64,000 nucleotides of DNA from Novosphingobium sp. 28-62-57 (GTDB taxonomy: Bacteria; Pseudomonadota; Alphaproteobacteria; Sphingomonadales; Sphingomonadaceae): assembly GCA_002256985.1 (NCBI GenBank), contig NCGO01000005.1, positions 186,001 to 250,000 of the forward strand. The letters are read 5' to 3'. The notes under the pieces were generated by a model, which ran no database searches, was not told the origin of the DNA, and worked only from the letters and a program-made list of their open reading frames with translations. The translations under genes and the position numbers were made by a program. This document shows positions 14,298 to 55,127 of this stretch, one piece after another; position 1 is the stretch's first letter; the number at the start of each line of letters is the position of its first letter.

Positions 14298-14337
14298 TAA
14301 ACGCTATCCATGGGCGCGACAATATAGGGAGAGTCGC

Positions 14338-15876: not shown

Positions 15877-15925
15877 TGCAAAGCGCTGGAATGCAACCTG
15901 ATACCGGAGCGCAGGCTCTTGTGAA

Positions 15926-15939
15926 TGACACCGGTTTCC
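15926..15939. promoter_or_regulatory. LacI-type operator, copy 6 (2-keto-acid hydratase-like gene)
   Basis: TGACACCGGTTTCC, one mismatch from copy 5. It lies between uxaA and the hydratase-like gene, 33-46 bp before the preferred start at 15972. Confidence 0.7.
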
Positions 15940-15971
15940 TATACGCAGCCGGACGAATGAAGGACCTGGGG

Positions 15972-25792: not shown

Positions 25793-25804
25793 ATTGTCAA
25801 CAAT
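25793..25804. promoter_or_regulatory. FadR-type operator candidate
   Basis: ATTGT-CA-ACAAT, a perfect short palindrome 31 bp upstream of the GntR gene start, in the divergent promoter region. Confidence 0.55.
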
Positions 25805-25897: not shown

Positions 25898-27646
25898 GTG
25901 ACAAGGACTCCGATCCTGGCAGCGGTAATGGCGGCGGCTTGCACAACCGCTGCGCCTGTCGCCTTGCAGGCGCAGGCGCTCTCTGCCGCGCCCTATCCTG
26001 ATGTCGTGCGCACGTCTTCCTATGTACCGGTGCGCGATGGCACACGGCTTGCGGTCAACGTCTATCGCCCCGCCCGTGATGGCGTGGTCGAAACCGCACC
26101 GTTGCCGGTGATCTTTTCCTTCACCCCCTATCGCGCGCGCTTCAAGGACAAGGACGGCAAGATTGAAGAGTTGGCCCTGAGCGACCGGCTCGCCATGCGC
26201 AGCCTGATCCGCGCGGGCTATGTCGTGGCCACGGCCGACATTCGCGGCAAGGGCACCTCGTTAGGGCACCGCCGCGGCTTTCAGGATCGCACCGAGGCAC
26301 AGGACGGCCACGATCTTGTCGAATGGCTGGCCAGGCAGCCGTTCTCCACGGGCAAGGTCGGCATGATCGGCTGCTCCTATCTTGGCGGGTCAACCTTCCA
26401 TACCGCCACCACCGCCCCTCCATCGCTGAAGGCCGTGTTCATCGGCGCATCGGATCTCGACAAGTACGCCTTCGTGCGCCGGGGCGGTATTCCCGCGCAG
26501 TTCAACACGCGGCCTGATGAGCCGCCCGAAGTTGATCTGGCCAGCGTGCCGGTGGACGCCGATACCGATGGCACCATGCTGCGCGCCGCCGTGGCCGAAC
26601 ATGCCGCCAACACGCCAATGGCCGCGCTGTGGTATGGCATGCCCTATCGTGACAGCGTTTCGGCCTTCACCGGCAATGCCTTCTGGGAAGAGGTTGGGAC
26701 CTATAACTACCTTGATGCGATCCGCCGCGCCGGAATTGCCACCTATTTCTGGAGCAACTGGCAGGACGAGCCAACCGCGCAATCGCTTTTGAGTGCGGCC
26801 AATTTCCCGCAAAGCCGCTTTCTGGCCGGGCCAGGCAGCCATTGCGTGCCCCCACCGGGGTTTGATTTCACCGGCGAAATCACCCGCTATTTCGATTTGC
26901 ATCTGAAGAGTGCTGGCACTTCCGCCAAGGCCCCGCGCGCGACTTATTGGGTCGAAGGGCTGAATGGGAAGGGCGGCTATGTCACCTCCGACACGCTGCC
27001 AGGTGAGGCCAGCACGCCGCAAGGCTGGTTTCTCAGCGGCGGCAAAAGCAGCACCGCGCGTTCGGCCAATGATGGCACCTTGCTGCTCAAGGCTGGGCGC
27101 TCCGGCGCTGACAGCTTCACCGTGCAATACGATCTGCCCGATCCTGAATACTTCGCGTTCTGGGCCAAGCCGATGGACGACAAGGGGCTGAGTTACACCA
27201 CGGCGGCGCTGACGAAGCCCGCCAAGCTTATCGGCTTTCCGGTGGCGCATCTGGCGGTTTCGGCGGACAAGCCCGACGCTCACGTGTTTGTCTATCTCGA
27301 TCAGGTGGATGCTGCGGGCAAGGCTGAGGTCGTGGCCTTCGGGCGGCTCGCATTGTCGCACCGTATCGAGGGCCGCGCGCCTTATGCGGCCATGGGTCTG
27401 CCGTTCCATCCGGGACGTCAAGGCGATGTCATGCCGGTCGCTCCGGGGCAGGTGGTGCGTATGAACATCGATATGACGCCAATATCGCGCGTGGTTCCCG
27501 CGGGTGCGCGGCTGCGGTTGACGATTGCCGGGGCCGATCCGCGCCAGCGCAACTTGAAGGACATCCGGCAAAATCCAGCTCCGGTCATCACGGTGCATCA
27601 CGGCGGGGCCGATGCCTCACGCCTCGATCTGCCGCTGGCGCAATGA
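25898..27646 (+). CDS. Exported CocE/NonD-family hydrolase
   Basis: 582 residues from GTG 25898 (ribosome site gaggagag). Signal peptide, then an alpha/beta-hydrolase domain with SYVPVRDGTRLAVNVYRP, the nucleophile elbow GCSYLGG with Ser160, and ADIRGKGTSLG. The C-terminal ~220 residues form the jelly-roll of the X-Pro dipeptidyl-peptidase/CocE family (GFPVAHLAVSADKPDAHVFV). These enzymes hydrolyse esters (cocaine esterase) or acyl-amide/peptide bonds. It opens the 18-kb operon and would act outside the inner membrane, releasing the acid that the downstream TRAP system could import (inference). Confidence 0.87.
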   Translation: MTRTPILAAVMAAACTTAAPVALQAQALSAAPYPDVVRTSSYVPVRDGTRLAVNVYRPARDGVVETAPLPVIFSFTPYRARFKDKDGKIEELALSDRLAMRSLIRAGYVVATADIRGKGTSLGHRRGFQDRTEAQDGHDLVEWLARQPFSTGKVGMIGCSYLGGSTFHTATTAPPSLKAVFIGASDLDKYAFVRRGGIPAQFNTRPDEPPEVDLASVPVDADTDGTMLRAAVAEHAANTPMAALWYGMPYRDSVSAFTGNAFWEEVGTYNYLDAIRRAGIATYFWSNWQDEPTAQSLLSAANFPQSRFLAGPGSHCVPPPGFDFTGEITRYFDLHLKSAGTSAKAPRATYWVEGLNGKGGYVTSDTLPGEASTPQGWFLSGGKSSTARSANDGTLLLKAGRSGADSFTVQYDLPDPEYFAFWAKPMDDKGLSYTTAALTKPAKLIGFPVAHLAVSADKPDAHVFVYLDQVDAAGKAEVVAFGRLALSHRIEGRAPYAAMGLPFHPGRQGDVMPVAPGQVVRMNIDMTPISRVVPAGARLRLTIAGADPRQRNLKDIRQNPAPVITVHHGGADASRLDLPLAQ

Positions 27647-27717
27647 TTACGAAGTGACGCTTGAGTTTTGGGGAAATGGAAGCCGCGTTTGACGGCTCAG
27701 GGAAGGAGCAAGGCAAC

Positions 27718-30420
27718 ATGAAGGGCAATCTCGATCGGTCTGCCAAGGCCATTTTGAACATCAGCTGCAGCGCGCTGGCACTGGTTCTGCCGGTAGCCGC
27801 GCAGGCGCAGGACGTTCCGCAGGAGGCCGCAGAAGACGCATCGCCCACCGATGACGCCATCATCGTCACCGGCAGCCGCGTGCGCGGCACCGCGCCGGTG
27901 GGTGCGGCGGTGACAGCACTGGGCCGCAAGGACATCGAAACATCGAGCGCGGTAACCGTGGACCGCATGATCCGCGAAATTCCGCAGGTCTTCGATCTGG
28001 GCGTGTCCGAAAACTCGCGCGGGCAATCGGGCGGCGCGGGCAATATCACGTTCGGCAACTCGGTGAACCTGCGCGGTATCGGGCCTTATGCCACGCTGAT
28101 CATCGTCGATGGCCACCGCGTGACCAACAACAGCCGCTCGATCGACCCCTCAACCATTCCATCGCTGGGTGTGGAGCGGGTTGAAATCATCGCTGATGGC
28201 GCTTCGGCCATCTATGGTTCGGATGCCGTGGCAGGTGTGGTCAATATCATCCCGCGCCGTTCGCTGGATGGTGGTGAACTGCTGGCGCGTCAGGGCATCA
28301 GCAGCCGTGGCGATTTCCACGAAACCACGCTGGGCGCAGCGCTGGGCAAAGTGTTTGATCGCGGCCAGATCATGGTCGCCTATGAACATATCGAACGCTC
28401 GAACCTGTCGGGCGATGATCGCGATTTCTTCACCAGCGATCAGCGCGCATTTGGTGGCACAGACTATCGCATCGTCCGCTGCGCACCGGGCAATATCAAC
28501 GCCAACGGCACGACTTATGCCATCCCCACAGCAGGGCTGACTCAGGCAGGCGCGGCGGGACTGGTCGCAGGCTCGCTCAACAAGTGCGATGAGCTGACCA
28601 ATCAGGATCTGATCCCCGAACAGCGCTATGATTCGGTCAACAGCACCGGGCGCTTCGAAGTGACCGACTGGCTCGAAGTGTTCTACGACGGCTTCTATTC
28701 CAAGCGCTCGTTCTATCGCAAATCGGCGTTTGCCAGCGCGCGCTTGACCGTGCCGCAGACCAACGCATTCTTCGTGCGGCCAGCAGGCTTTACCGGCTCC
28801 AGCTACACGCTCGATTACAATTTCCGCGATGATCTGCCGACCAACGATTCCTCGGGCTTTGCCAAATCGTGGCAGATCACGCCAGGGATCAAGGTCAAAC
28901 TGCCGGGCGATTGGCAGGCCGAAGCCCTGTTCGGTTATGGCAAGACCAACGATTTTTCGGGATCGTACTTTGCCACCAATAACGCTGCTCTGAATGCGGC
29001 GCTGGCCAGCAGCAACCCCGACACCGCGTTTGATCCTTATGGCCTTGGTCGCACCAGCCAGGCCGTGCTGAATGGCATTGCCAACCAGATCTTCCTTGCC
29101 CCCACCAATGGCCGGTTGCGCACCTATGAAGGCCGCCTCAACGGCAGCCTGTTTGCCGCTCCCGGGGGTGACGTGAAACTGGCCGCAGGCTATGAACGGC
29201 AGGACTTCACCGTTGCGCTCGGCTCTGCGCGCGGCGCACCGACCACGCCAATCGTGTTCCGCAACTTCGGGCGAAAAGTCGATTCGTTCTACGCTGAGCT
29301 CTATGTGCCGGTGTTCGGCCCTGAAAATGCGATGGGCGGCTTCCAGCGTCTGGAATTCAACGCCGCCGTGCGCCACGACAAGTATTCGGACGTGGGCGGC
29401 ACCACCAATCCCAAGTTTGGCGTAAACTGGGTGCCGTTCGATGGCGTGAAGCTGCGCGGCAGCTATGGCACATCGTTCCGCGCGCCGACGATCCCGGAAA
29501 TCTACGGCAATTCGAACAACATCTTCGGCCAATCGTACCAGAACCCGGCAGGCGGCGCGCCGCTGCAGGGCTATGCGCTGTCGGGCCCCAACCTTGATCT
29601 TGAGCCGGAAACGGCCACGTCATGGTCGGTCGGCATCGATTTTGATCCCACGCCCAACCTGCATTTCGGCCTGACGTACTGGGATGTGAACTACAAGAAT
29701 CAGGTGCTCGCCAACCTGTCGAACCTCGCCATTCTGGGCACCGAGGCGCAATATACCGGGACCGGAATCATCCTGCGCGGCACCGATGCGGCCACGCGTG
29801 TGCAGCAATTGCTGGCTCAGGGCGTGACGCTGGCAGGCGGCTCCTTCCCCGGCGGCAGCGCGGCCAATGTCACGCTGTTCGTCGATGGGCGCAGCCAGAA
29901 CCTTGGCGTTTCGATCACGCGCGGCATCGATTTCATCGGCAGCTGGCGGGCCGAACTGGGCGGCGAAGATGCGCTGACATTCAGCGCTTCGGGCACCTAC
30001 CTGACCAAGTACCGCGTGGCGCTGACCCCCACCGCCCCGCTGATTGATCGGCTGAACTTCATCTTCAACCCGCTGAAATTCCGCGCCCGTGGTAGTGTCA
30101 CGTGGGATCACGGCGCGTTCAGCGCGCGCGTGCTGGCCAACCACGTCAACGGCTATTTCAACAACCTGACCGCCGCAGGGCAACAGGTGAAGAGCTACAC
30201 GCCGATCGAACTGAACCTGACCTACCGGATCGGGGACCGCAACGCGACGGGCTTCTTCGACAAGGGCATGACGCTCAGCCTCGAAGTGCGCAACCTGTTC
30301 GATATCGATCCGCCTTATGTCAATCTGGCGCCCAGCGGCAACGGCAGTGGCGGCTATGACGCCAGCGCCAGCGACCCGATTGGCCGCCTGTTTGCCGTGT
30401 CCTTGCGCAAATCGTTCTGA
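27718..30420 (+). CDS. TonB-dependent receptor
   Basis: 900 residues from ATG 27718 (ribosome site ggaagga). Signal peptide ending near AAQAQ, TonB box-like DDAIIVTGSRVRG, plug motifs TLIIVDGHRVTN and VERVEIIADGASAIYGSDAV, and a barrel finishing RLFAVSLRKSF. This is the large family with an ADGASAIYGSDAVAG plug signature. It sits between the CocE-like gene (71 bp) and the first CapA-like gene (4 bp), so it is part of the operon and probably imports the intact conjugate or its fragments. Confidence 0.93.
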   Translation: MKGNLDRSAKAILNISCSALALVLPVAAQAQDVPQEAAEDASPTDDAIIVTGSRVRGTAPVGAAVTALGRKDIETSSAVTVDRMIREIPQVFDLGVSENSRGQSGGAGNITFGNSVNLRGIGPYATLIIVDGHRVTNNSRSIDPSTIPSLGVERVEIIADGASAIYGSDAVAGVVNIIPRRSLDGGELLARQGISSRGDFHETTLGAALGKVFDRGQIMVAYEHIERSNLSGDDRDFFTSDQRAFGGTDYRIVRCAPGNINANGTTYAIPTAGLTQAGAAGLVAGSLNKCDELTNQDLIPEQRYDSVNSTGRFEVTDWLEVFYDGFYSKRSFYRKSAFASARLTVPQTNAFFVRPAGFTGSSYTLDYNFRDDLPTNDSSGFAKSWQITPGIKVKLPGDWQAEALFGYGKTNDFSGSYFATNNAALNAALASSNPDTAFDPYGLGRTSQAVLNGIANQIFLAPTNGRLRTYEGRLNGSLFAAPGGDVKLAAGYERQDFTVALGSARGAPTTPIVFRNFGRKVDSFYAELYVPVFGPENAMGGFQRLEFNAAVRHDKYSDVGGTTNPKFGVNWVPFDGVKLRGSYGTSFRAPTIPEIYGNSNNIFGQSYQNPAGGAPLQGYALSGPNLDLEPETATSWSVGIDFDPTPNLHFGLTYWDVNYKNQVLANLSNLAILGTEAQYTGTGIILRGTDAATRVQQLLAQGVTLAGGSFPGGSAANVTLFVDGRSQNLGVSITRGIDFIGSWRAELGGEDALTFSASGTYLTKYRVALTPTAPLIDRLNFIFNPLKFRARGSVTWDHGAFSARVLANHVNGYFNNLTAAGQQVKSYTPIELNLTYRIGDRNATGFFDKGMTLSLEVRNLFDIDPPYVNLAPSGNGSGGYDASASDPIGRLFAVSLRKSF

Positions 30421-30424
30421 TCGG

Positions 30425-31531
30425 ATGCGCGGCGGAGCGATCACTATTGTGCTGGCAGGGGACCTCGTGCTCGATGAGCCCGATGCCCCCTACTGGCTGG
30501 CCGGGATCGCTCCGGCGCTGCAGGCGGCAGACCTAGCGGTCGGCCACATGGAAGTGCCGCATTCGGCGCGCGGGGTAGAGCTGAAAGGCGATGTCCCCGC
30601 ACCCGCCGCGCCGCCCGAAAATGTGGCGGCGATTGCAGGGGCGGGGTTTCACATGCTGAGCCTTGCCGGAAACCACATCGCCGATTGCGGGGCCGATGGC
30701 ATTGCCGATACGCTTGCTTTGCTTGAAGAAGCGGGGCTCAAAGGCACTGGGGCAGGGCTGACCCTCGCACAAGCAAAAGCACCGGCAGTGGTTGAACGCG
30801 GCGGACGCCAGATCGGCCTGCTCAGCTATAATTGCGTCGGCCCGGAGATTTCGTGGGTCAGCGACAGCCGCGCCGGTTGCGCCTACTTGCGCATCGAAAC
30901 GGCAGACGGCTCCGCAATCGCGCCCGCCGCCAACCTTGAACACGTGACCGATGCAGCCGTGGCAACCCTGCAAGCCGATATCGCCGCCCTGCGCCAAGAG
31001 GCGGATTTCGTAATGGTCGCGCTGCACAAGGGCATCGTCCACACGCCCGCCAAGCTCGCCCCCTATGAACGCGCGATCAGCCATGCCGCGATTGATGCAG
31101 GCGCGAATGTGGTGATCGGCCACCACGCCCATATCGTGCGCGGCATCGAATTCTATCGCGGCAAACCGATCTTCCACGGCCTCGGCAATGGCTGCGTCGT
31201 CACCAGCGCGCTCAGCCCCGCGCAAGACCATCCGGCCCGCCGCGAATGGGCCGAGCGGCGCAAAGTGATGTTCGGCTTCGAACCGGACCCGGCCTACACG
31301 CTCGCGCCGTTCCATCCCGAGGCGGTCAATGCCATGCTGGGGCGTCTGACCTTGCACCCAGACGGTAGCGTAGATGTGGGTATCGTGCCAGTCAATGTGC
31401 TGGCACCCGGACGGCCCGTGCTGGCAACAGGAGAACGCAAGACCGCCGTGGCCCGCTATATCGAACAGATCACAGTGGCTGCCGGACTGCCCGCCATCAC
31501 CATCGCGGCTGACGGGACGGTATCGGCATGA
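30425..31531 (+). CDS. CapA-family (PGA_cap) metallophosphatase-fold protein, first copy
   Basis: 368 residues. Metallophosphoesterase-like motifs appear in order: TIVLAGDLVLDE, VGHMEVP, LAGNHIADCG, VALHKGIVHTP and IGHHAHIVRG. These match the CapA/PgsA group named for poly-gamma-glutamate capsule genes. No signal peptide or membrane anchor is visible, unlike PgsA, so it is probably cytoplasmic. The rest of the capsule genes (CapB/CapC) are absent. It starts 4 bp after the receptor stop and overlaps dctQ (ATGA). A catabolic hydrolase role is inferred from operon context. Confidence 0.8.
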   Translation: MRGGAITIVLAGDLVLDEPDAPYWLAGIAPALQAADLAVGHMEVPHSARGVELKGDVPAPAAPPENVAAIAGAGFHMLSLAGNHIADCGADGIADTLALLEEAGLKGTGAGLTLAQAKAPAVVERGGRQIGLLSYNCVGPEISWVSDSRAGCAYLRIETADGSAIAPAANLEHVTDAAVATLQADIAALRQEADFVMVALHKGIVHTPAKLAPYERAISHAAIDAGANVVIGHHAHIVRGIEFYRGKPIFHGLGNGCVVTSALSPAQDHPARREWAERRKVMFGFEPDPAYTLAPFHPEAVNAMLGRLTLHPDGSVDVGIVPVNVLAPGRPVLATGERKTAVARYIEQITVAAGLPAITIAADGTVSA

Positions 31532-31980
31532 AATCCTTGCGCACAGCCATGACTCTGACCGGCGGCATCGCCCTGCTGGCGGCAACCGGCATCGATACGA
31601 TCTCGGTCATCGGGCGGCACGTGGGAATGCCGTTTCGCGGCTCCATCGAACTGGTGCAGGTGGCCGTGCTGGTCGCCGGAACGCTGGCGTTGCTGGTGGC
31701 CACGGTAGACCGTTCCCACGCCAAAGTGCACCTGCTGGTTGATCGCATGAGCGAACCCGCCCGCGCCATGCTGGATCGCGTGTCCGCGCTGTTGGGCGCG
31801 CTATTCTTCGCCGCGCTGCTGGCAGGCGCGGCATGGCTGATGGCCGATCTGTGGAGCGGGCATGAGGAAAGCGAAGTTGTCGGCGTGCCGTGGCGCTGGA
31901 TGCGGCTGTTCGCCAACGTCGTGTTCCTCGCCATCGTCCTCGCGCTGCTTGGCCAAGCCATTCGGAGGCGAAAGCCATGA
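31528..31980 (+). CDS. dctQ: TRAP transporter small permease (DctQ)
   Basis: 150 residues, four predicted membrane helices (SLRTAMTLTGGIALLAATGI; LVQVAVLVAGTLALLVATVD; LGALFFAALLAGAAWLMADL; VVFLAIVLALLGQAI). The short size and the helix pattern, directly before DctM, identify it as the small TRAP subunit. It overlaps both neighbours by 4 bp. Confidence 0.88.
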   Translation: MKSLRTAMTLTGGIALLAATGIDTISVIGRHVGMPFRGSIELVQVAVLVAGTLALLVATVDRSHAKVHLLVDRMSEPARAMLDRVSALLGALFFAALLAGAAWLMADLWSGHEESEVVGVPWRWMRLFANVVFLAIVLALLGQAIRRRKP

Positions 31981-33287
31981 TGCTGGCGACGCCCGAAACC
32001 GGCCTGATCGGCGTGCTGATCCTGTTCGCCCTGCTGCTGGCGGGCCTGCCTATTGGCGTGGCACTGGGCCTTGTCGGCCTTGGCGGGCTGTTTCTGGTGC
32101 TCGGCATAGAGCCGGGGCTGATCAAGGGCGGCGTCGTGCTGGTCGATACGCTCACTCGCTATGAACTCGGCACGCTGCCGCTGTTCATGTTTATGGCGCA
32201 CCTGTTCTTTTCGTCGAACGCCAGCCGCGATTTGTTCGATGCGGCGGCCAAGATGGTCGGCCACCGGCGCGGGGGCCTTGCCTATGCCTCGGTCGGCGGG
32301 TGCGCAGGGTTCGGCGCAATCAATGGCTCCAGCCTTGCCACGGCAGCCACCATCGGGCTGGTGGCGCTGCCCGAAATGCGCAAGCGCGGCTATTCCGATG
32401 CACTGGCCACCGGAACCGTGGCCGCAGGCGGCACACTTGGCCAGATGATCCCACCTTCGGGCGCGCTGATCGTGTTCGGGATCATTGCCGAACAGTCCAT
32501 CGGCAAGCTGTTCACCGCCGCCATTGTGCCGGGCATCACACAGGCGCTGCTCTATTGCGCAGTGATCTGGATCGTGGTGCGCCTGCGCCCCAACGCCGCC
32601 CCCGCCAGCGAACGCGCCACATGGGCGGAACGCCGCGCCGCGCTGGGCAAGATTGCGGACATGGTGCTGCTGATTGCGCTGGTCATTGGCGGCATTGCGC
32701 TCGGGTGGTTCAGCCCTTCCGAAGCCGCCTCCATCGGCGCGGCAGGCGCTCTGGCCATTGCCGCATGGCGCCGCCGCCTGAACCGCGACATGCTGATGCA
32801 GGCCTTCGAAGAAACATTGCGGACCAGCGGCCTGATCCTGATGGTCATCATCGGCGCGCTGGTGTTCTCGGTCTTCGTGTCGGTTACTGGCGTCACCGAT
32901 GCGGTGGGCGCATGGGTCACCGGCCTTGCGCTCGGCACCGTGCCCACGCTGCTGCTGGTCGCGCTGATCCTGCTGCTGCTCGGCTCCGTGCTCGATGGGC
33001 TGGCGCTGATGCTGCTGACCACGCCGATCTTGCTGCCGGTGGTGGAAAGCGTGGGCATGTCGGCCATCTGGTTCGGCATTTTTCTGTGCCGTGCGATGGA
33101 AATCGGCTTCGTCCACCCGCCGCTGGGTATGAACCTCTATGTCATTCAGGGCGTGGCCAAGGACGTGTCCATCAACCGCATCTTCAAGGGCGTGATGCCG
33201 TTCCTCGCCAGCGATCTGTTCCACCTCCTGATCATCATCCTGTTCCCCGCCTTGGCGCTGGGACTGCCTGAATTGCTTGGAAATTAA
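31977..33287 (+). CDS. dctM: TRAP transporter large permease (DctM)
   Basis: 436 residues with about 12 helices. Family motifs include GLPIGVALGLVGLGGLFLVL, FGAINGSSLATAATIG, GGTLGQMIPPSGALIVFG and the C-terminal PPLGMNLYVIQGVAKD. With DctQ and the binding protein encoded downstream it forms a sodium-driven importer of organic acids. ATG 31977 overlaps the dctQ stop; ggaggcg is the ribosome site. Confidence 0.93.
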   Translation: MMLATPETGLIGVLILFALLLAGLPIGVALGLVGLGGLFLVLGIEPGLIKGGVVLVDTLTRYELGTLPLFMFMAHLFFSSNASRDLFDAAAKMVGHRRGGLAYASVGGCAGFGAINGSSLATAATIGLVALPEMRKRGYSDALATGTVAAGGTLGQMIPPSGALIVFGIIAEQSIGKLFTAAIVPGITQALLYCAVIWIVVRLRPNAAPASERATWAERRAALGKIADMVLLIALVIGGIALGWFSPSEAASIGAAGALAIAAWRRRLNRDMLMQAFEETLRTSGLILMVIIGALVFSVFVSVTGVTDAVGAWVTGLALGTVPTLLLVALILLLLGSVLDGLALMLLTTPILLPVVESVGMSAIWFGIFLCRAMEIGFVHPPLGMNLYVIQGVAKDVSINRIFKGVMPFLASDLFHLLIIILFPALALGLPELLGN

Positions 33288-36255: not shown

Positions 36256-37550
36256 GCGACGCCCCAACAACGACATCGGGCCAGCGCAGCCGCAAGGACC
36301 TTGCCTGCACATCTGCCGCCAACGCCTATCAAAAGCAGTTCGGCGCAGACCTGAAACGCCGCGTGGTGGACGAGGGCGAGCCCTTTGCCATCGTGCAGGC
36401 CGATACCCCGCACGAGATTTTCCACGTGATGGGCATCCCGATCATCACCAACCAGTGGTGGTCGGCCTATATCTCGGCCAAGCAGCTTTCGAACCACTAT
36501 TTCGAAGTGATGGCGCAGGCGGGCTACCCGAAGAACAGCTGCAAATACTGCTCGCTCGGCCTTGCCTGCACGCTGGCGAATGACCCGAAAACCGCGCCGT
36601 GGGGCGGCTTGCCCAAGCCCACCGTGCTGGTCGCCCGCATGACCTGTGATTGCATCCAGCACGTGTTCGGCCAGTGGGCCGATGCGCTGGGCAGCGAGTT
36701 CTTTCCGATGGAAGCGCCCGCATGGGAACACAAGGACCCGCGCTGGTTCGCCCACTCAAAGGACCAGTGGGAACAGGTCTATGATCCAGACCGCATCGCG
36801 CTGGCGGTCACGGAAATGCGCGATCTGATCACGCTGTTGGAAAACCGCACCGGCCGCAAGTTCGATGAGGCCAAACTCCAGTATCTGATGGAGCGGATCA
36901 ACGAGCAGGAAGGCTATATCTGGGAAGCGGCGCAAGCCATTGGCACGGCGCGGCCTTGCCCGGTTTCGATCGCCGAACAGATGCCCAACACGATGATCCC
37001 GCAGTGGCACCGCGGCTCCGACTGGGCGGTGAACCACGCCAAACGCTTCCGCGACGAGGTGATGGAGCGCGTTGCCGCAGGTGCTGGTTGCGCCACGCAG
37101 GAGAAGATCCGCCTGATGTGGATCGGCGCGGGCGTGTGGCACGATCCCGGCTTTTATCAGGCCCTTGAAGAGCGGATGGGCGCGGTCTTCGTCTGGTCGA
37201 TGTACATGCCGTTCGCAGGCCCCCAGTATATCCGCGAATTGCAGGGCCGCCCGATGGACGCGCTCGCCAGCCGCGTCTGTTCGATGAACGAGGTGCTGCA
37301 CCTGCCGCCATGGATGAACGGGTGGATGACCAGCGAGGCCGAGCGGTGCGGGGTCGATGCCTGCGTCGTGCTGCTGCCGCCTGAGAACCGCCTGTCGCAA
37401 TCAGGCACCAAGATCACCGCAGAGGCTTTGGAAAAGGCGGGCGTGCCGGTGCTGATGATCGATGCCGACATGGTCGATGCGGGCAACTGGGATCATGACA
37501 AGATGGTTGGCCTTGTAGCGGACTTTCTGGTGCAGCGGGGGCTGGCTTGA
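36252..37550 (+). CDS. BcrC/BadD/HgdB-family protein, large (2-hydroxyacyl-CoA dehydratase-like)
   Basis: 432 residues, GTG start overlapping the upstream stop (GTGA). Features of the family are the N-terminal helix, ADTPHEIFHVMGIPIITNQ, a cysteine cluster (YPKNSCKYCSLGLACTL), the Cys-Asp motif in VARMTCDCIQHVFGQW, and later KIRLMWIGAGVWHDPGF and RVCSMNEVLHLPP. Several conserved cysteines could hold a [4Fe-4S] cluster. Known members dehydrate 2-hydroxyacyl-CoA or reduce benzoyl-CoA through ketyl radicals in anaerobes, and need an ATP-dependent activator. An aerobic sphingomonad setting is unexpected, so the reaction here is unknown. Confidence 0.75.
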   Translation: MSDAPTTTSGQRSRKDLACTSAANAYQKQFGADLKRRVVDEGEPFAIVQADTPHEIFHVMGIPIITNQWWSAYISAKQLSNHYFEVMAQAGYPKNSCKYCSLGLACTLANDPKTAPWGGLPKPTVLVARMTCDCIQHVFGQWADALGSEFFPMEAPAWEHKDPRWFAHSKDQWEQVYDPDRIALAVTEMRDLITLLENRTGRKFDEAKLQYLMERINEQEGYIWEAAQAIGTARPCPVSIAEQMPNTMIPQWHRGSDWAVNHAKRFRDEVMERVAAGAGCATQEKIRLMWIGAGVWHDPGFYQALEERMGAVFVWSMYMPFAGPQYIRELQGRPMDALASRVCSMNEVLHLPPWMNGWMTSEAERCGVDACVVLLPPENRLSQSGTKITAEALEKAGVPVLMIDADMVDAGNWDHDKMVGLVADFLVQRGLA

Positions 37551-38611
37551 GGCGGCCAGGTGTCATCTCTGTGCTTCTAGGTGCACTTCAGACTTTGCTG
37601 ATAGCAGGGCTGCTTTCCGGCTGTGCGCGGCCCGTGGAGCCGGGCGTGACGGAGCTGGTCTTTGCCTCACCCTACAGCCCCAATCACCCGTTTTCGAAGG
37701 CCGATCAGGAGTGGATGGCGTTTGTTGAAAAGCGCTCCGAAGGGCGGCTGAAGATCAAGCCGGTGTGGTCGGGCGCGCTGCTTTCGTCAGACATGTCGAT
37801 GGAGGAACTGCGCCACGGCGTGGCCGATATCGGCCTGATCACGCCAATCTATGTGCGTGGCGGAACGCATCTGATCCGCATCCAGTCGGGCTTCTATCAG
37901 GGCGCGGACAGCGTTGAATCGCAAGTGGCGCTCTATCGCTGCATTGATGCTGCAAACCCGCAGGTCGGGCGTGAACTGGCAGGGCTGAAAGTGCTTGCCG
38001 TTCAGGGCGGGACGCTACCCGGCCTGATCACCGTCAACCGCCCGGTCAGGAGCCTTGCCGACATCAAGGGCCTGCGCATCCGCGCGCCGACCGAACTGCT
38101 GAGCGTGCTGGATTCGCTGGGCGCAGACCCCGTGAACATGCCGATGGGCGAGGTCTATTCCGCGATGGCCAAGGGCGTGATCGATGGCGTGATCGCGCCG
38201 GAGGACACGTTCAAATCGCTGCATTTTGCCGAAATTTCCAAGCACTTCTACCAGATCGCCGTGCCGCGCGGGGCCTATCCAGCGCGCGCAATGAGTGCGA
38301 AGCGGTGGAACACTTTGGCGGCGCAGGACCGCGCTGTGCTGGAAGAAGGCATTGCCGTTTGGGAAGCAGCGCTGGCGCGGCAAGTGCGCGCGGCGGTGGA
38401 CAAGGGGAAGGACGAAGCGGCGGCCTACAAGGTCACGTTCAACCCGGCAACGACGGCGGACCAGCAACGCTTCGATGCGATCTATCTGCGCGATTCGCAG
38501 GCCAATGCGCGCGGCCTATCGGCCTTTGGCATCGATGGCGAAGCTGCGTTCCAATCGGCCCGCACGGCGGTGCAGGGGCGGGACCGGATTTCCTGTGGGA
38601 GTGGAACATGA
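37547..38611 (+). CDS. dctP: TRAP transporter substrate-binding lipoprotein (DctP)
   Basis: 354 residues. A lipobox LLSGC ends the signal (residues about 22-26), so the protein is lipid-anchored. The mature part shows the DctP pattern: LVFASPYSPNHPFSKADQEW, ELRHGVADIGLITPIYV, and the conserved binding segment SLADIKGLRIRAPTELLSVL, with the Arg that pairs with a substrate carboxylate (RIRAP). The start is uncertain: TTG 37547 overlaps the upstream stop, and GTG 37571 is possible. It is separated from dctQM by three catabolic genes in the same operon. Confidence 0.85.
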   Translation: MRRPGVISVLLGALQTLLIAGLLSGCARPVEPGVTELVFASPYSPNHPFSKADQEWMAFVEKRSEGRLKIKPVWSGALLSSDMSMEELRHGVADIGLITPIYVRGGTHLIRIQSGFYQGADSVESQVALYRCIDAANPQVGRELAGLKVLAVQGGTLPGLITVNRPVRSLADIKGLRIRAPTELLSVLDSLGADPVNMPMGEVYSAMAKGVIDGVIAPEDTFKSLHFAEISKHFYQIAVPRGAYPARAMSAKRWNTLAAQDRAVLEEGIAVWEAALARQVRAAVDKGKDEAAAYKVTFNPATTADQQRFDAIYLRDSQANARGLSAFGIDGEAAFQSARTAVQGRDRISCGSGT

Positions 38612-39522
38612 AACGTCTGACAGCCCTTGCGCTATCGGTAGCATTGAGCGCCGCGCCGCTTGCCGCCAGCGCGCAAGTGATTGGCGACCCTGCAGGAACA
38701 GGCGGCCTTCCCGCTGTGGCCGAGGCGCGCGCCGATGCGCCGGGTTACACGATCTATCGCCCCGCCACTTGGCCCAAGGAACCGCTGCCGCTGGTGCTGT
38801 GGGGCAATGGCGGGTGCCGCAACAACGGTCTGTCAGCCAGCCACTTCCTGCGCGAGATTGCCAGCCATGGCTACCTGGTGATCGCCAATGGCGCGCCAAA
38901 GGAAGAGCGCCCGGTGATGGCCACACTGCCGCCAGCCAACGGCCCGCGTCCCACCGGAGCGCCACCCCCGCGCGCAACGCCCGATGAAACGCAAGTCAGC
39001 CAGTTGCTTGGCGCGATTGACTGGGTGGCAGGCAGCGACCTTGCACCCCATGTGGACACCACCCGTATCGCGGTAATGGGCCATTCCTGTGGCGGATTGC
39101 AGGCGCTGGCCGCCGGGGCCGATCCGCGCATTGATGCCGTGATGGCGTTCAACAGCGGCGTCTACGTTCGCGCCGGTTCGGGCTTAAGCGGTGTGGGCAT
39201 CACCAAGGACGATCTGACCAAGCTGCACACTCCGGTCGCTTACATTCTCGGCGGGCCGGATGACATTGCCTATCCCAACGGGTCTGACGATGTGGCGCGG
39301 ATTGCGCATGTGCCGGTGTTCTATGCCAACTCGCCGGTAGGCCACGGCGGCACATTCGGTCTTGCCAATGGCGGGGATTATGGACGCATCGGCGCGGCCT
39401 GGCTCGATTGGCAGCTGAAGGGCAGCAAGGCTGCAGGCGCGATGTTTACAGGGGCCGACTGCGGCCTGTGCAATGACAAGACGTGGACAATTGTCCGCAA
39501 GCAGTTTCCGGAGAACCCATGA
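38608..39522 (+). CDS. Exported alpha/beta hydrolase
   Basis: 304 residues. Sec signal peptide (ALALSVALSAAPLAASAQ), then an alpha/beta hydrolase with LVLWGNGGCRNNG (oxyanion region) and the nucleophile elbow GHSCGG with Ser160. A His candidate lies in SPVGHGGTFG. I do not recognise a closer family; related proteins act as esterases or on polyester-like compounds. It overlaps dctP and the second CoA-transferase gene by 4 bp each. Its export, like that of the CocE-like enzyme, suggests the pathway starts with hydrolysis in the periplasm. Confidence 0.8.
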   Translation: MKRLTALALSVALSAAPLAASAQVIGDPAGTGGLPAVAEARADAPGYTIYRPATWPKEPLPLVLWGNGGCRNNGLSASHFLREIASHGYLVIANGAPKEERPVMATLPPANGPRPTGAPPPRATPDETQVSQLLGAIDWVAGSDLAPHVDTTRIAVMGHSCGGLQALAAGADPRIDAVMAFNSGVYVRAGSGLSGVGITKDDLTKLHTPVAYILGGPDDIAYPNGSDDVARIAHVPVFYANSPVGHGGTFGLANGGDYGRIGAAWLDWQLKGSKAAGAMFTGADCGLCNDKTWTIVRKQFPENP

Positions 39523-40715
39523 ATCAGCCAACGTCCGGTAAGGGTCCACTGGCCGGCATCCGCATTGCCGATTTCAGCCATGTCATGGCAGGCCCCTATG
39601 CCTCGCACCTGCTGCGGCTGATGGGCGCGGAGGTCATCAAGATCGAGCCGAAGGGCGGCGACGGGTTCCGCAATTACGGCGCGGACCGGCGCTATGATGG
39701 CATGTCGCCCGCGTTCATCGCGGCCAATGCGGGCAAGAAATCCATCGCGCTCGATCTGAAGGATGCAGGCGATCTGGGCATTGCCCGCGATATCATTGCG
39801 CGCAGCGATGTGGTGCTGGAAAACTTCCGCCCCGGCGTGATGGCGCGGCTTGGGCTGGGCTATGAAGCGGTCTGCGAACTGCGCGCCGACGTGATCTATT
39901 GCTCGGTTTCCGGCTATGGTCAGGAAGGCCCGCTGCGCGATTGGCCCGCCATCGACAACATCGTGCAGGCCACCAGCGGCATGATGATGCTGAGCGGCGA
40001 GGAAGGCGATCCGCCGGTGCGCGTGGGCTTTCCGATTGTGGATACGCTGACCGGGCAGACTGCGGCAATGGCGATCCTTGGCGCGCTGATGCAGCGGGAG
40101 CGCCATGGCACTGGCAGCAAGCTTGATGTCTCGATGCTCGATGCCAGCCTTGCTTTCATGACATCGGCGCTGACGCCGTTCATGGTGACCGGCAAGCCGA
40201 TGACCCGCATGGGCAATACCGGCTATAGCGGGTTGCCCACTGCATCGCTGTTCACCGCTGCCGATGGGCGGCAAGTGTCGCTGGGCGTGGTGCAGCCACC
40301 GCAATTTGCCGCGCTGGCCCGCGCGATGGGGCGCGAGGACTGGCTGACCGATCCGGCCTATGCCACGCCCGATGCACGCCGGGCCAATTTTGATGCAATG
40401 CATGCGCAATTATCAGCCGAGTTCGCAAAGGATGCAGCGGTCGCTTGGGAACAGCGGCTGAGCGCTGCGGGCATCCCTTGCGGCATGGTGCGCCGGGTGG
40501 ATGAAGCCGCTGATCTTGCCGGTGAATCGGCGCTGATCGACCTTGCCATTCCGGGCCTGCCGCAAGAAAACGTGCGCATCCCCGGCGCGGGCTATCGCGT
40601 GGAAGGGCGGGCGCCGCTCGCGCTGGATGCGCCGCCACGCCTTGATGCCGATCGCGAGAGCATTCTGGCGTGGCTGGCGGGCGAGGCTGTGGAACTGGCC
40701 AAAGTGGCGTCATGA
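39519..40715 (+). CDS. CaiB/BaiF (family III) CoA-transferase
   Basis: 398 residues, standard length. Motifs: GIRIADFSHVMAGPYASHLL (residues 13-32), GAEVIKIEPKGGD, ENFRPGVMARLGLGYE and the catalytic Asp175 in FPIVDTLTG, followed by RHGTGSKLDVSMLDA. It transfers CoA between a dicarboxylic or other acid pair. It may supply the thioester for the dehydratase-like enzyme or recycle CoA from the product. Translationally coupled on both sides (ATGA). Confidence 0.9.
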   Translation: MNQPTSGKGPLAGIRIADFSHVMAGPYASHLLRLMGAEVIKIEPKGGDGFRNYGADRRYDGMSPAFIAANAGKKSIALDLKDAGDLGIARDIIARSDVVLENFRPGVMARLGLGYEAVCELRADVIYCSVSGYGQEGPLRDWPAIDNIVQATSGMMMLSGEEGDPPVRVGFPIVDTLTGQTAAMAILGALMQRERHGTGSKLDVSMLDASLAFMTSALTPFMVTGKPMTRMGNTGYSGLPTASLFTAADGRQVSLGVVQPPQFAALARAMGREDWLTDPAYATPDARRANFDAMHAQLSAEFAKDAAVAWEQRLSAAGIPCGMVRRVDEAADLAGESALIDLAIPGLPQENVRIPGAGYRVEGRAPLALDAPPRLDADRESILAWLAGEAVELAKVAS

Positions 40716-41833
40716 TCCACACTGTGCTGGCAACCGGCGATCTTGCCATGGATCGCGAGGATTACGACGCCTGCTTTGCCGGAACCGCCAATGTGCTAAG
40801 CGCGGCAGACATCGTGTTTGGCCAGCTTGAAACCAGCTTTGCCAGCAAGGGCGTGCGCTTGCCACAGGCACGCCATGCCGTGCTGGCGCGGCCTGAAGGC
40901 GCAGCGGCGCTGGGCCGGGCCGGGTTTGACGTGATCTCGATGGCGGGCAACCACGTGATGGATTGGGGGCACGAAGCCTTTTTCGAAACCCGCGCGCATA
41001 TCGAGGCTGCGGGCATGAGCGTGGTGGGCGCAGGCGCGAACATCGCCGAGGCGCGCCGCCCGGTGATCCGCAGCTTGCCCGATGGCACGCGTGTGGCGTT
41101 TCTGGCCTATTCCAGCATCCTGCCGCATTCCTATTGGGCCGATGAGCGCCGCCCCGGCTGTGCGCCAATGCGGGCTTTCACCGTCTATGAACAGATCGAG
41201 CATGACCAGCCCGGCACGCCCGCGCGCGTCCATACTTATCCACACCGCGAGGACCTTGCCGCGATGGAGGCCGATATTCGCGCCGCCAAGGCAGACGCCG
41301 ATGTTGTGCTGGTATCGCACCACTGGGGCATCCACTTTGTGCGTGCAGTAATTGCCGATTATCAGCGCGATGTAGCGCGTGTCGCGATTGCCGCCGGGGC
41401 CGATGCGATCTTTGGCGGGCATGCGCATATCCTGAAGGGGTGCGAGCTGATCGACGGCAAGCCGGTGTTCTATTCGCTGTGCAACTTTGCCACCGACCTG
41501 GCGATGGACGAGGCGCACGCCGCATCCAAAAGCTTCAATGAAATCCGCGTGCTGGCCGAGGAGTGGGAGCCAGACTTCGAAAGCCTGTACAACTTCCCCA
41601 AGGCGGCGCGGCTTTCGATGATGGCAAAGCTGGAGATCGCGGGTGGCAAGGTGCTGCGCGCAGGCCTGCTCCCGCTGGTGATCGGGCGCGATGCGGTGCC
41701 GCGTCTGGCAGCGCCGGGCAGTGAGGATCACGCCGCAGTGGTCGATTACTTGAGCGCGGTGACGCAGGAGGCGGGCCTCAATGCACGCTATCGCACCGAT
41801 GGCGACATGGTGCTGCTGGAAGCAGCGGCGTGA
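40712..41833 (+). CDS. CapA-family (PGA_cap) metallophosphatase-fold protein, second copy
   Basis: 373 residues. Motifs in order: VLATGDLAMDRED, FGQLETSF, SMAGNHVMDWG, VLVSHHWGIHFV and FGGHAHILKGCEL. These are closer to the canonical family pattern than in the copy at 30425 (HWG kept). No signal peptide. The two copies differ widely, so they are not a recent duplication and may act on different intermediates. Coupled to both neighbours by 4-bp overlaps. Confidence 0.83.
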   Translation: MIHTVLATGDLAMDREDYDACFAGTANVLSAADIVFGQLETSFASKGVRLPQARHAVLARPEGAAALGRAGFDVISMAGNHVMDWGHEAFFETRAHIEAAGMSVVGAGANIAEARRPVIRSLPDGTRVAFLAYSSILPHSYWADERRPGCAPMRAFTVYEQIEHDQPGTPARVHTYPHREDLAAMEADIRAAKADADVVLVSHHWGIHFVRAVIADYQRDVARVAIAAGADAIFGGHAHILKGCELIDGKPVFYSLCNFATDLAMDEAHAASKSFNEIRVLAEEWEPDFESLYNFPKAARLSMMAKLEIAGGKVLRAGLLPLVIGRDAVPRLAAPGSEDHAAVVDYLSAVTQEAGLNARYRTDGDMVLLEAAA

Positions 41834-42858
41834 CCGCGCGCAAGGGTGGCTTTCCGCTCGAGGGCTTCGTTGTCCTCTATCTGCTGGCCTATCTGCCCAA
41901 TGTGATCGTGACCAAGCTGGTCACCTCGATCCCGCATCCCGGCCTTGGCCGTCCGCTGACCGGGTTGGAGACGCTGCCTGCATCGCTGATCATCAGCATG
42001 GTGCTGACCTATGGCTTCATCTGGCTGTCGGGCTGGCATAGGGATGCCAACAAGATTGCGCTGGGGCCGGTGCAGGTGCCGTTTCCCACGCGCTATACGT
42101 TCCTTTCGGGCATTGGCACGGCGATGGTGCTGTTCACGGTGCCGCTCAGCTTCACCATTCCCGATGTCAGCATTCCGTTCATCCAGTTGCTGATGCGCGG
42201 GGATATTCTGGTGATCGCGCCAATTGTCGATCTGATGTTCGGACGCCGGGTGCGCTGGTGGAGCTGGACCGCGCTGGTCATGGTGCTGTTCGCGCTGGTC
42301 ATCGCGCTGTCGGACCGGGGCGGGCTGAAGCTGCCGCCGATCGCGATTCTGACAGTGGTGCTCTACACCATCGGCTATTTCCTGCGCCTGTTCGTAATGA
42401 CCAAGATTTCGAAGAGCGGCGATCCGGCTTCGGTGCGGCGCTATTTCGTGGAAGAAAAGGTCATCGCGCTGCCGATGTCGGTCGTGATCCTTGGGGCCAT
42501 TTCAGCCAGCGGGATCGGCGGGCAATCTGGTGAGCTGGCCTGGGGCTTTATCCGCGTATGGGGCGATCCGGTGCTGGCCGACCTGTTCTGGATCGGCGCG
42601 ACGCTGACGGTGATTTCGGTGCTGGCGATCATCATCCTGCTCGACCCGCGCGAGAACGCCTATTGCGTGCCGCTGGAACGCGCGGCGAGCCTTGTGGCGG
42701 GGATTGGCGGATCGGTGCTGCTGGCCTGGTTCTGGGGCCTGCGCATGCCGCGCGATGCCGAACTGATTGGCGCAGGCGTGCTGGTGGGGGCGATTGTGCT
42801 GCTCTCGCTCGCCCCGCGCTTTGCCGCAAGGCGTGAAGCGTTGAGCGAAAGCGCATGA
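41830..42858 (+). CDS. EamA-like (DMT) integral membrane protein
   Basis: 342 residues, about ten hydrophobic helices, GTG start coupled to the preceding stop. The pairwise layout and segments such as MRGDILVIAPIVDLMFGRRV and ALVMVLFALVIALSDRGG are like drug/metabolite transporters, which usually have ten helices. I cannot assign a substrate. It may export a product or intermediate; since a TRAP importer is present, a second import role is less likely. Confidence 0.65.
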   Translation: MTARKGGFPLEGFVVLYLLAYLPNVIVTKLVTSIPHPGLGRPLTGLETLPASLIISMVLTYGFIWLSGWHRDANKIALGPVQVPFPTRYTFLSGIGTAMVLFTVPLSFTIPDVSIPFIQLLMRGDILVIAPIVDLMFGRRVRWWSWTALVMVLFALVIALSDRGGLKLPPIAILTVVLYTIGYFLRLFVMTKISKSGDPASVRRYFVEEKVIALPMSVVILGAISASGIGGQSGELAWGFIRVWGDPVLADLFWIGATLTVISVLAIIILLDPRENAYCVPLERAASLVAGIGGSVLLAWFWGLRMPRDAELIGAGVLVGAIVLLSLAPRFAARREALSESA

Positions 42859-44225
42859 TGGTGGGTGTCAGCGATACGCTTTGCGCGCACATCGCCTCAG
42901 TGCGCTGGGAGGATCTGCCCGAAGCGGCGCGCGAAGGGGCGCGGCGGGTGCTGCTTGATGCGGTGGGAGTGACTTATGCCGCCAGCGGCCTTGCACCAGA
43001 AGCCGCGCCGTTCATCGCGCTGGCCCGCGCCAATGGGGCAGGGCCCTGCCGCATTCTGGGCACGGCGCACCGGGTACAACCGCTGGGCGCGGCACTAGCC
43101 AATGGCGCGCTCGCCCATGCGGTGGATTATGAGGACGCGTTTGACCGTGCACCTGCGCATCCCAACGCTTCGCTGGTGCCGGTGCTGCTTGCACTTGCGC
43201 AAGCTGAGGCTCCAGTGGATGGTAGGCGTTTGCTGACGGCGCTGGCGGTGGGCGGGGATGTGGCCTGCCGCATCGCGCTGTCGCTGCGGCAGCCGATGGA
43301 GCAGGGCGGGTGGTATCCGCCGCCGATCGTCGCCGCGTTTGGCGCGGTGGCGGGCGCGGCGAACCTGTTGGGGTTGACGGCAGAGCAGACCAAGGATGCG
43401 CTGTCGCTCACGCTGTGTCAGGTGACAATGCCCGGAGAAATCAAGCACAGCCGCCGCACCGTGTTGCGCGCCGTGCGCGAGGCTTTCCCGGCGCAGGCCG
43501 CGCTGACGGCGGCGCTGCTGGCGCGCGATGGCGTGGCCGGATTTGAAACGCCGCTGGAGGGCAAGGCGGGCTTCTATGCGCTTTATGCGGGCGGGCAGTT
43601 TGACGAGGGTGATCTGACGGACCGTCTGGGCCAGCATTACTGGGGCGCGGAATTGACGTTCAAGCCATGGCCCAGTTGCCGGGGCACGCATCCCTTCATT
43701 GAAATGGCGCTCGATCTGGTGGCGCGGCATGGCTTTGCGGCGGATGACATCGCGTCAGTTCAGGTCATGGTCGACGATGTTCAGGCGATGCTGGTCGAGC
43801 CGCTGGAGCGCAAACAGGCCCCGGACGTGGCGATTGACGCCAAGTTCTCGATCCCCTTCACCACGGCGCTGGCACTGGTGCGCGGCGGGGTGAGGCTGGA
43901 TTCGTTCGGGCCGGAAAGCCTGTGTGATCCGCAGGTTCTGGCGATGGCGGCCAAGGTTGTGCCGGTCGTGCAAGCCTCGCCCAAGTGGCAGCGCGGCGTA
44001 GGTGGGGCGATGCGGGTGACGCTGAAGGATGGTACGGTGCATGAGGCGTTTGTCGCCAATGCGCTGGGGTGCCCGGACCGGCCTTTGAGCGATACGGCGC
44101 AACGCGCGAAGTTCACCGATTGCCTGTCGCGTGCGGCGGTGCCGGTGGGGCTTCGGGATGCAGAGGCTCTGGCGGAACGCATATTGGCACTGGATATGTG
44201 CGAGGATGTGGGCGCGCTGTTCTGA
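42855..44225 (+). CDS. MmgE/PrpD-family protein
   Basis: 456 residues. Family features: an N-terminal helical domain with LLDAVGVTYAASG, the segment LANGALAHAVDYEDAFDRAPAHPNASLVPVLLALAQ (shown in parts: GALAHAVDYEDAF, AHPNASLVPVLLA), YPPPIVAAFGAVAGAANLLG, and FKPWPSCRGTHPFIEMALDL. Members dehydrate 2-methylcitrate, decarboxylate cis-aconitate or isomerise branched acids without iron-sulfur clusters. The last gene of the operon, coupled to the permease gene. Its presence points to a branched or polycarboxylic acid intermediate. Confidence 0.88.
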   Translation: MMVGVSDTLCAHIASVRWEDLPEAAREGARRVLLDAVGVTYAASGLAPEAAPFIALARANGAGPCRILGTAHRVQPLGAALANGALAHAVDYEDAFDRAPAHPNASLVPVLLALAQAEAPVDGRRLLTALAVGGDVACRIALSLRQPMEQGGWYPPPIVAAFGAVAGAANLLGLTAEQTKDALSLTLCQVTMPGEIKHSRRTVLRAVREAFPAQAALTAALLARDGVAGFETPLEGKAGFYALYAGGQFDEGDLTDRLGQHYWGAELTFKPWPSCRGTHPFIEMALDLVARHGFAADDIASVQVMVDDVQAMLVEPLERKQAPDVAIDAKFSIPFTTALALVRGGVRLDSFGPESLCDPQVLAMAAKVVPVVQASPKWQRGVGGAMRVTLKDGTVHEAFVANALGCPDRPLSDTAQRAKFTDCLSRAAVPVGLRDAEALAERILALDMCEDVGALF

Positions 44226-51486: not shown

Positions 51487-51504
51487 GGCGCAGCGCGGCT
51501 GCTT

Positions 51505-54977: not shown

Positions 54978-55060
54978 CTTCAAAGCCCATCTGAGTGAGG
55001 CCTTTCAGGCATCCTCTCCCAAAACTTCCCAGGGTCGGCCCAGCGCCGGCCCTTTTTTTT
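54978..55060 (+). ncRNA. Candidate small RNA (possibly suhB/mmgR-like)
   Basis: About 80 nt ending in a rho-independent terminator. The segment GCATCCTCTCCCAAAACTTC before the terminator is an unpaired C/A-rich stretch of the type used by Hfq-dependent small RNAs, and recalls the alphaproteobacterial suhB/mmgR family; that resemblance is from memory and uncertain. The 5' end is only estimated. The terminator is 112 bp past the galE stop, far for a simple galE terminator. Confidence 0.4.
55032..55060 (+). terminator. Rho-independent terminator
   Basis: Stem GGGTCGGC (55032-55039) with GCCGGCCC (55045-55052), one G-U pair, 5-nt loop, followed by eight T (55053-55060). Confidence 0.85.
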
Positions 55061-55127
55061 GCGCACGTTACCGCGGTCGCGAGTTCAAGCGCATTTGGTG
55101 ACCGTTAGGTTATCAAAGAAGAAGATA

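Follow-up and report, generated by a model that had tools for sequence, protein, structure and literature searches.

A conserved, regulated Novosphingobium gene cluster built around an HGD-D protein pair that lacks key sequence hallmarks of radical acyl-CoA enzymes

The stretch of DNA analyzed here (64,000 nucleotides, hereafter the window) comes from Novosphingobium sp. 28-62-57 (NCBI GenBank assembly GCA_002256985.1, contig NCGO01000005.1, positions 186,001 to 250,000 of the forward strand), whose genome measures 4.10 Mb and is reported to be 100% complete. At positions 25898 to 44225 it holds a 14-gene cluster that is real, conserved, and regulated, and whose central pair of proteins, here called A and B, belongs to the known HGD-D family and, judged from sequence, lacks features that define the family's radical enzymes. 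We give an even chance to the reading that the cluster is a catabolic module under local regulation that handles an ester or amide of an organic acid, with A/B acting as an activator-independent and probably non-radical acyl-coenzyme A (CoA) enzyme. Literature searches directed at this gene set and its components gave no title or abstract that describes it, in agreement with the first-pass annotation, which had called the set undescribed.

B is clearly a family member, scoring 167.6 bits against PF06050 (HGD-D) and so well over the cut-off of 28.4 bits. A alone scores 24.5 bits, under that cut-off, and a PDB search with A alone gave no family member. Because a profile of 61 A rows matches HadC (5.7e-22) and BzdN (2e-19), along with double-cubane proteins and MbdN (1e-5), we assign A to the family too; the corresponding profile of 55 B rows matches MbdO (1.9e-23), BzdO (3e-18), and HadB (1e-16). 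The A proteins of six related loci (L127-L131 and L133) score 99.8-132 bits as HGD-D, and set against these the 24.5 bits of window A suggest a decayed family member instead of an unrelated protein. The first-pass annotation had placed both proteins in the HgdB/BcrC/BadD family, a claim to be dropped if profile searches put them elsewhere; neither 33287-34171 nor 36252-37550 was assigned to an unrelated family, and both fall within the HGD-D superfamily.

Among 298 genomes of the host's family, 21 have a match to B at E 1e-5 or better. Clade 1 comprises 15 of these, our own included, with B at 75-81% identity in the 14 relatives; clade 2 comprises four, with B at 38-42% identity; and the remaining two carry distant HGD-D proteins only (22-24% identity). 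In the four clade-2 loci (L043-L046) A and B form one open frame of 716-799 amino acids, the N-terminal part of which scores 60.6 bits as HGD-D in L043, and in clade 1 they are separate genes, with a pair of CaiB-type CoA-transferase domains fused instead. The single A-B frame implies that A and B act as a pair, and we take the two arrangements as evidence that A/B forms a complex and the CaiB fusion a separate one.

PMC11971306 gives Cys95, Cys128, and Cys380 as the cluster ligands of BzdO, Tyr97, Tyr298, and Gln274 as its thioester contacts (the two tyrosines bind the thioester carbonyl), and Glu65 and His131 as its acid/base residues. We read the B-BzdO alignment residue by residue, with an offset of +4 from profile to window numbering. 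The three ligands align with C97, C132, and N379 of B, and Tyr97 and Tyr298 with Y99 and Y318, so that two of the three thioester contacts are kept. His131 aligns with I135, and the conserved Glu of HadB and MbdO aligns with Q68, the BzdO Glu65 region lying outside the aligned stretch; B does not reproduce the benzoyl-CoA reductase active-site set (Cys95/128/380, Glu65, His131). In a 55-row B alignment (A5), C97, C100, and C132 are present in every row and C134 in 54, and the third-ligand column holds N in 42 rows, S in 8, C in 2, T in 2, and H in 1. Y99 and Y318 are invariant both there and in a 12-row B alignment (A1), five rows of which are from clade 2 (L043-L046 and L053); those five have none of the four cysteines and keep both tyrosines.

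Window A contains only three cysteines (C83, C156, and C278), and in alignments with its relatives and with HadC/BzdN none of them stands at an aligned cluster-ligand position. C83, found in 48 of the 61 rows, aligns with a HadC cysteine that we judge, without proof, not to be a cluster ligand, and Cys100 of BzdN falls outside the aligned A-BzdN stretches. PMC8473912 describes 2-hydroxyacyl-CoA dehydratases as oxygen-sensitive enzymes with an activator and a three-cysteine cluster in each subunit; of these ligands A has none and B two of three.

We searched for the activator with PF01869 (cut-off 31.5 bits). Our genome has no match over the cut-off, its best reaching 17.8 bits, and the same holds for all 19 genomes with a clade-1 or clade-2 B, ours included; a 31.1-bit fragment in G063 falls just below. 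Only the two genomes with distant HGD-D proteins (G088 and G152), out of the 21 with B-like matches, have PF01869 over the cut-off, about 120 bases from the HGD-D match, and in a third distant-HGD-D genome (G421) the HGD-D locus itself, L054, holds a gene of activator type. For the ATP-dependent [4Fe-4S] activator of the dehydratases, our genome thus has no match over the cut-off in a search that detected it in two others. A scan of genome contigs with alignment A1 gave 285 B relatives, and all counts over 80 loci below refer to the best 80 of them (L055-L134); within these loci, covering up to about 10 kb on each side, tblastn with the G088 and G152 activators as queries (E 1) turned up no homologue. 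Genomes were searched with PF01869 for 40 of the 80 relatives, of which 26 gave nothing at 1e-5, one a match below the cut-off, and 13 a match above it. Twelve of these 13 (the exception being G682) were examined at one locus each, and the activator Cys loop was present in four (L135, L136, L137, and L140), the other eight (L138, L139, and L141-L146) having a GxDGGG-type start and no such loop. A PF01869 match was therefore rejected as proof of an activator. Where examined, the B family occurs mostly in genomes without one.

The first-pass annotation had proposed that a 2-hydroxyacyl-CoA dehydratase removes water in this pathway, which is at odds with the absence of an activator over the cut-off, the lack of cluster cysteines in A, and the missing third ligand in B; a radical dehydratase was rejected as the leading reading on activator absence and cysteine loss. 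We consider it unlikely that A/B still works as a radical enzyme, whether 2-hydroxyacyl-CoA dehydratase or arene reductase, served by an unrecognized activator or reductant. The clear place of B in PF06050 is what such an enzyme would show, C100 and C134 might supply the remaining ligands of a cluster begun by C97 and C132, the two that match, and activator-type genes do occur in 4 of the 40 relatives' genomes. This is outweighed, in our view, by the 0 of 19 genomes with PF01869 over the cut-off, by a window A in which none of the aligned ligand positions holds a cysteine, and by a sister clade that has lost all four B cysteines yet keeps much of the gene set. Novosphingobium and the other host groups are, moreover, generally aerobic. 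Known dehydratases, in contrast, are extremely sensitive to oxygen (PMC8473912).

The non-radical reading that we prefer starts from descent of A/B from the radical 2-hydroxyacyl-CoA dehydratase/benzoyl-CoA reductase family, with the path of electron entry lost. Because both thioester-binding tyrosines are retained, we infer for A/B a chemistry in which an enolate or oxyanion would be stabilized, allowing non-radical dehydration, isomerization, or C-C/C-X cleavage with no need for an activator, and we suggest that C97, C100, C132, and C134 may form a structural or Lewis-acid metal site that the sister clade has dropped. A widespread lineage of this radical fold would have become an oxygen-compatible, activator-free, redox-silent acyl-CoA enzyme, with one branch fused and without the metal site, that anchors an undescribed aerobic pathway for conjugates of aromatic or dicarboxylic acids; for this fuller version the scales stand level. 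Known HGD-D enzymes are radical catalysts that are sensitive to oxygen and activated with ATP, and this case, if true, would reveal a way for their fold to function without radical chemistry. It is also a warning that an automated annotation as 2-hydroxyacyl-CoA dehydratase or as benzoyl-CoA reductase may mislead in these genomes.

Several observations weigh against the non-radical reading. The third thioester contact of BzdO, Gln274, aligns with A293 of B and is not kept. B retains the third cysteine in L127 and L132, and A retains one cysteine, by eye at an apparently canonical position, in L128-L131. Four invariant or nearly invariant cysteines across 55 B rows imply that a metal site, perhaps still a [4Fe-4S] cluster, matters in those proteins. 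Activator-type genes lie elsewhere in the genomes of L128, L097, L132, and L129 (G712, G698, G715, and G713, respectively), which weakens the argument from activator absence for those four. The cysteine geometry and the residue roles are drawn from sequence alignments. Finally, a hydroxycinnamate hydratase/lyase, which bears on the substrate discussed below, lies near the cluster in only 3 of 99 sequences (98 loci and the window).

Among characterized systems, the class I benzoyl-CoA reductases BzdNO and MbdNO (8s02 and 9g87) are likewise two-subunit HGD-D proteins, with B resembling the O subunits and A resembling BzdN and, weakly, MbdN, and their thioester tyrosines Tyr97/Tyr298 correspond to Y99/Y318; the operon pair differs in having no activator over the cut-off, no cluster cysteines in A, Asn as the third ligand position of B, and Gln68, Ile135, and Ala293 in place of the Glu, His131, and Gln274. 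The 2-hydroxyisocaproyl-CoA dehydratase HadBC (3o3m) is matched by the A profile (HadC) and the B profile (HadB), and both systems are partnered with CoA-transferases, but the operon's genome has no activator over the cut-off and A/B does not keep all cluster ligands. The double-cubane cluster proteins (6eno and 7yyl) share a superfamily with A/B, which differs in consisting of two different subunits, with no recognized cluster cysteines in window A and no activator over the cut-off.

The operon consists of 14 plus-strand genes, and open reading frames, Pfam, and NCBIfam agree with the first-pass annotation on its layout and family assignments, including a single strand with no gap above 71 bp. 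With the regulator and putative operator upstream, the features are as follows.

25091..25762, minus strand: divergent GntR/FCD-family regulator (Pfam FCD 97.6 bits, GntR 51.7 bits)
25793..25804, no strand: putative operator ATTGTCAACAAT, with palindromic ends TTGT..ACAA
25898..27646, plus strand: exported CocE/NonD-family hydrolase (Peptidase_S15 and PepX_C, Pfam 135.8 and 101.8 bits)
27718..30420 (alternative start 27661), plus strand: TonB-dependent receptor (Pfam TonB barrel and plug)
30425..31531, plus strand: CapA1, PGA_cap metallophosphatase-like, core member (Pfam PF09587, 182.7 bits)
31528..31980, plus strand: DctQ of a tripartite ATP-independent periplasmic (TRAP) transporter (Pfam 67.1 bits)
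31977..33287, plus strand: TRAP transporter DctM (Pfam 328.3 bits)
33287..34171, plus strand: subunit A, degenerate HadC/BzdN-type HGD-D protein (PF06050 under cut-off; assigned by family profile)
34168..36255, plus strand: tandem CaiB-CaiB class III CoA-transferase, BbsEF-like (Pfam CoA_transf_3, two stretches)
36252..37550, plus strand: subunit B, HadB/BzdO/MbdO-type HGD-D protein with C97, C100, C132, and C134 (PF06050)
37547..38611, plus strand: DctP, TRAP solute-binding protein with a lipoprotein-like start (Pfam 113.6 bits; PDB relatives)
38608..39522, plus strand: exported alpha/beta hydrolase, weakly PETase/BHET-hydrolase-like (PF12740 26 bits, cut-off 28)
39519..40715, plus strand: second CaiB/BaiF CoA-transferase (Pfam 345.2 bits; PDB YfdE 3.6e-60)
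40712..41833, plus strand: CapA2, accessory PGA_cap protein (Pfam 217 bits)
41830..42858, plus strand: membrane protein (permease), accessory (no Pfam hit)
42855..44225, plus strand: MmgE/PrpD-family protein, accessory (Pfam 185.6 and 105.8 bits)

The longest intergenic gap, 71 bp, precedes the TonB gene when ATG 27718 is taken as its start, and among the 13 junctions ten are 4-bp overlaps, one is a 1-bp overlap, and one is a 4-bp gap, lengths that depend on the starts chosen in our own reading of the frames. The CocE-type hydrolase has a leader-like N terminus and scores 211 bits against NCBIfam TIGR00976 (cut-off 66.3). For the small hydrolase the PF12740 match was obtained with the frame 38305-39522, and an NCBIfam search from 38605 gave BHET hydrolase at 25.5 bits against a cut-off of 520. 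DctP, DctQ, and DctM are all over their Pfam cut-offs and make up a complete TRAP set. Subunit B is the one HGD-D match over the cut-off in the whole genome, the sole DctM match (at 1e-10) and both PGA_cap proteins of the genome likewise lie in the operon, and the gene order recurs across genera, so that the grouping is not due to chance. No RNA element in the operon exceeded Rfam thresholds, and predicted sigma-70 promoters and terminators were no commoner than in shuffled sequence.

The two CaiB/BaiF CoA-transferases of the first-pass annotation stand as two genes, but since 34168-36255 carries two CaiB domains joined in tandem, the operon has three such domains. The N half of the fusion best matches 9fn0_A in the PDB and the C half 9fn0_B, which are the two subunits of the benzylsuccinate CoA-transferase BbsEF (9fn0); the operon differs from BbsEF in joining the pair in one chain. 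The class III domain (CoA_transf_3) is recognized at 360.5 bits in the fusion and 345.2 bits in the second CaiB protein. Class III CoA-transferases have a catalytic aspartate, and an Asp in the C half is aligned with an Asp of 10uh yet is offset by one column from the Asp of 9fn0_B. No frame holding both CaiB halves was present in the clade-2 and distant loci examined, and we judge the CaiB genes of the second clade to be separate because their matches fall in different frames.

Under an alternative that we regard as improbable, A/B would have no catalytic step of its own and would serve the CoA-transferases as a scaffold or as a partner that binds CoA esters. In the window the fusion gene shares a 4-bp overlap with A and another with B, most loci have CaiB genes close to B, and loss of ligand cysteines with retention of the thioester tyrosines would suit a binding role. 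B is, however, strongly conserved (75-81% identity across 14 family relatives), and L039/L084, in which A directly adjoins B and the fused CaiB and CapA1 genes are missing, keeps A and B nonetheless.

The expectation that these families co-occur was borne out among the family genomes and in the 80 loci, with a core of TonB receptor, TRAP transporter, two CoA-transferase genes, CapA1, exported hydrolases, A, and B recurring around B in Alpha- and Gammaproteobacteria. Neighbors were counted by tblastn at 1e-5 around B in loci of unequal length, and since several family genomes are in both collections, the 80 loci cannot be counted as independent of the 18 family relatives. Fused CaiB was found in 71 loci, A in 67, CaiB in 67, DctM in 65, DctP in 65, CapA1 in 59, DctQ in 58, CocE in 51, TonB in 50, and hydrolase in 43, where counts for large families (CaiB, hydrolase, TonB) may take in paralogues. 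GntR was found in 25, many contigs or flanks ending early, the permease in 9, CapA2 in 8, and PrpD in 3. PrpD, CapA2, and the permease are local extras outside the core; PrpD, which the first-pass annotation had included in the system, was rejected as part of the pathway core. Across the family genomes, DctM occurs in 19/19 genomes with a clade-1 or clade-2 B against 49/279 others and CapA in 18/19 against 51/279, counts that take in the genes of the cluster itself and make no correction for kinship. One clustering of neighbors gave four extra families in seven or more loci.

The closest B proteins with a named source are from Novosphingobium (93-97% identity, L055-L060), among them N. taihuense (L058) and N. 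subterraneum (L060), and in a search of 385 genomes of the host's class five matched B at 1e-8, two of them already in the family search. A reduced core extends to Acidobacteria and Bacteroidota. Eight loci at 49-54% B identity (L127-L134), two of which are short or end just past B, have CapA in 6, a CaiB gene in 6, and CocE in 3; among them, an Acidobacteria metagenome-assembled genome (MAG; L133) has A, B, and CaiB, and a Saprospiraceae MAG (L134) has A, B, CapA, CaiB, and hydrolase. In L128, L129, L133, and L134 the neighborhood of B includes a major facilitator superfamily carrier or a homologue of such a carrier. Novosphingobium sp. ERN07 (L103, about 5600-16500) carries a shortened or decaying copy in which DctQ, DctM, CapA1, and the small hydrolase were not found and several genes are in pieces. 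A MAG labeled Klebsiella pneumoniae (L089) also carries the cluster, with B at 77% identity, and its label is probably wrong.

The GntR/FCD protein is the probable local regulator. Between its gene and the CocE gene sits ATTGTCAACAAT, a conserved putative operator. Upstream of the regulator in 34 distinct 200-bp regions, TTGTCAACAA is exact in 14, has one mismatch in 12, and has two or more in 8, compared with 6 exact and 2 one-mismatch occurrences in 680 random windows from the same loci, some of which are possibly real sites. Our genome has exactly one exact copy, and the best match in the decaying L103 copy has three or more mismatches.

From this gene content we infer the following order of steps. 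The exported CocE-type and PETase-like hydrolases and the TonB receptor would take up and cleave a conjugate, the released acid would enter through the TRAP importer, the CaiB-type transferases would form its CoA ester, the A/B heterodimer would then work on that thioester, and CapA1 may carry out a further step. Outside hydrolysis, TRAP import, and CoA-ester formation had been proposed in the first-pass annotation and are consistent with the gene content. The PGA_cap family name might instead suggest a biosynthetic module, for example for a CapA-linked gamma-glutamyl or capsule-type polymer, a reading that we find very hard to credit when no polymer ligase turned up among the 14 operon genes and the exported hydrolases, TonB/TRAP importers, and GntR/FCD regulator fit uptake and catabolism. 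The conserved operator, the importer, and the hydrolases offer direct routes to the substrate.

One lead to that substrate comes from genes beside the cluster in other loci. In L127 these are genes for a Rieske oxygenase of the VanA_C type, an aldehyde dehydrogenase, a CoA ligase, and a p-hydroxycinnamoyl-CoA hydratase/lyase, the last scoring 465 bits against a cut-off of 276. An O-demethylase role for the oxygenase, VanA_C by Pfam, is uncertain because its best NCBIfam match is methylsterol monooxygenase, well under the cut-off. The hydratase/lyase recurs in L034 (80%), where homologues of the aldehyde dehydrogenase and the CoA ligase accompany it, and in L073 (77%), with aldehyde dehydrogenase and an ATP-grasp CoA ligase; we treat its presence in these three sequences as modest evidence. 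Aldehyde dehydrogenase homologues occur in nine further loci at 69-74% (two partial, and L040/L086 being the same genome) and in one more at 33%, and tblastn over the 99 sequences gave homologues of PHB-type esterases in 8 and of BD-FAE-type esterases in 6.

Catabolism of ferulate and other hydroxycinnamates, for which ferA/ferB of SYK-6 are known genes, resembles these three loci in its hydratase/lyase, aldehyde dehydrogenase, and CoA-ligase genes, and differs in that the hydratase/lyase stands outside the conserved core. Because tblastn at the thresholds used found neither these esterases nor the hydratase/lyase in the window, the neighbors give a lead to a class and not an assignment. The candidate class is a hydroxycinnamate-type aromatic acid or a substituted dicarboxylic acid.

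Other features of the window were noted in passing. At 45117-46634 (minus strand) lies a 505-amino-acid protein with two CxxCH heme motifs and no Pfam family over the cut-off, a homologue of which is present in 19 of the 80 loci; PADLOC gave no defense-system match for this gene, A, B, or the permease. A 512-amino-acid open frame at 48953-50491 (plus strand) is assigned to no family by Pfam or NCBIfam with the thresholds applied. The window's single Rfam match, outside the operon, is a suhB/mmgR small RNA at 54993-55067 (plus strand; RF00519, 45.2 bits). Genes at 51481-52710 and 58973-62918 (plus strand) encode a cytochrome P450, an AMP-forming CoA ligase (steroid-24-oyl-CoA synthetase-like, under the cut-off), an amidohydrolase, and a KshA-like Rieske oxygenase, and together they may form a second degradation block.

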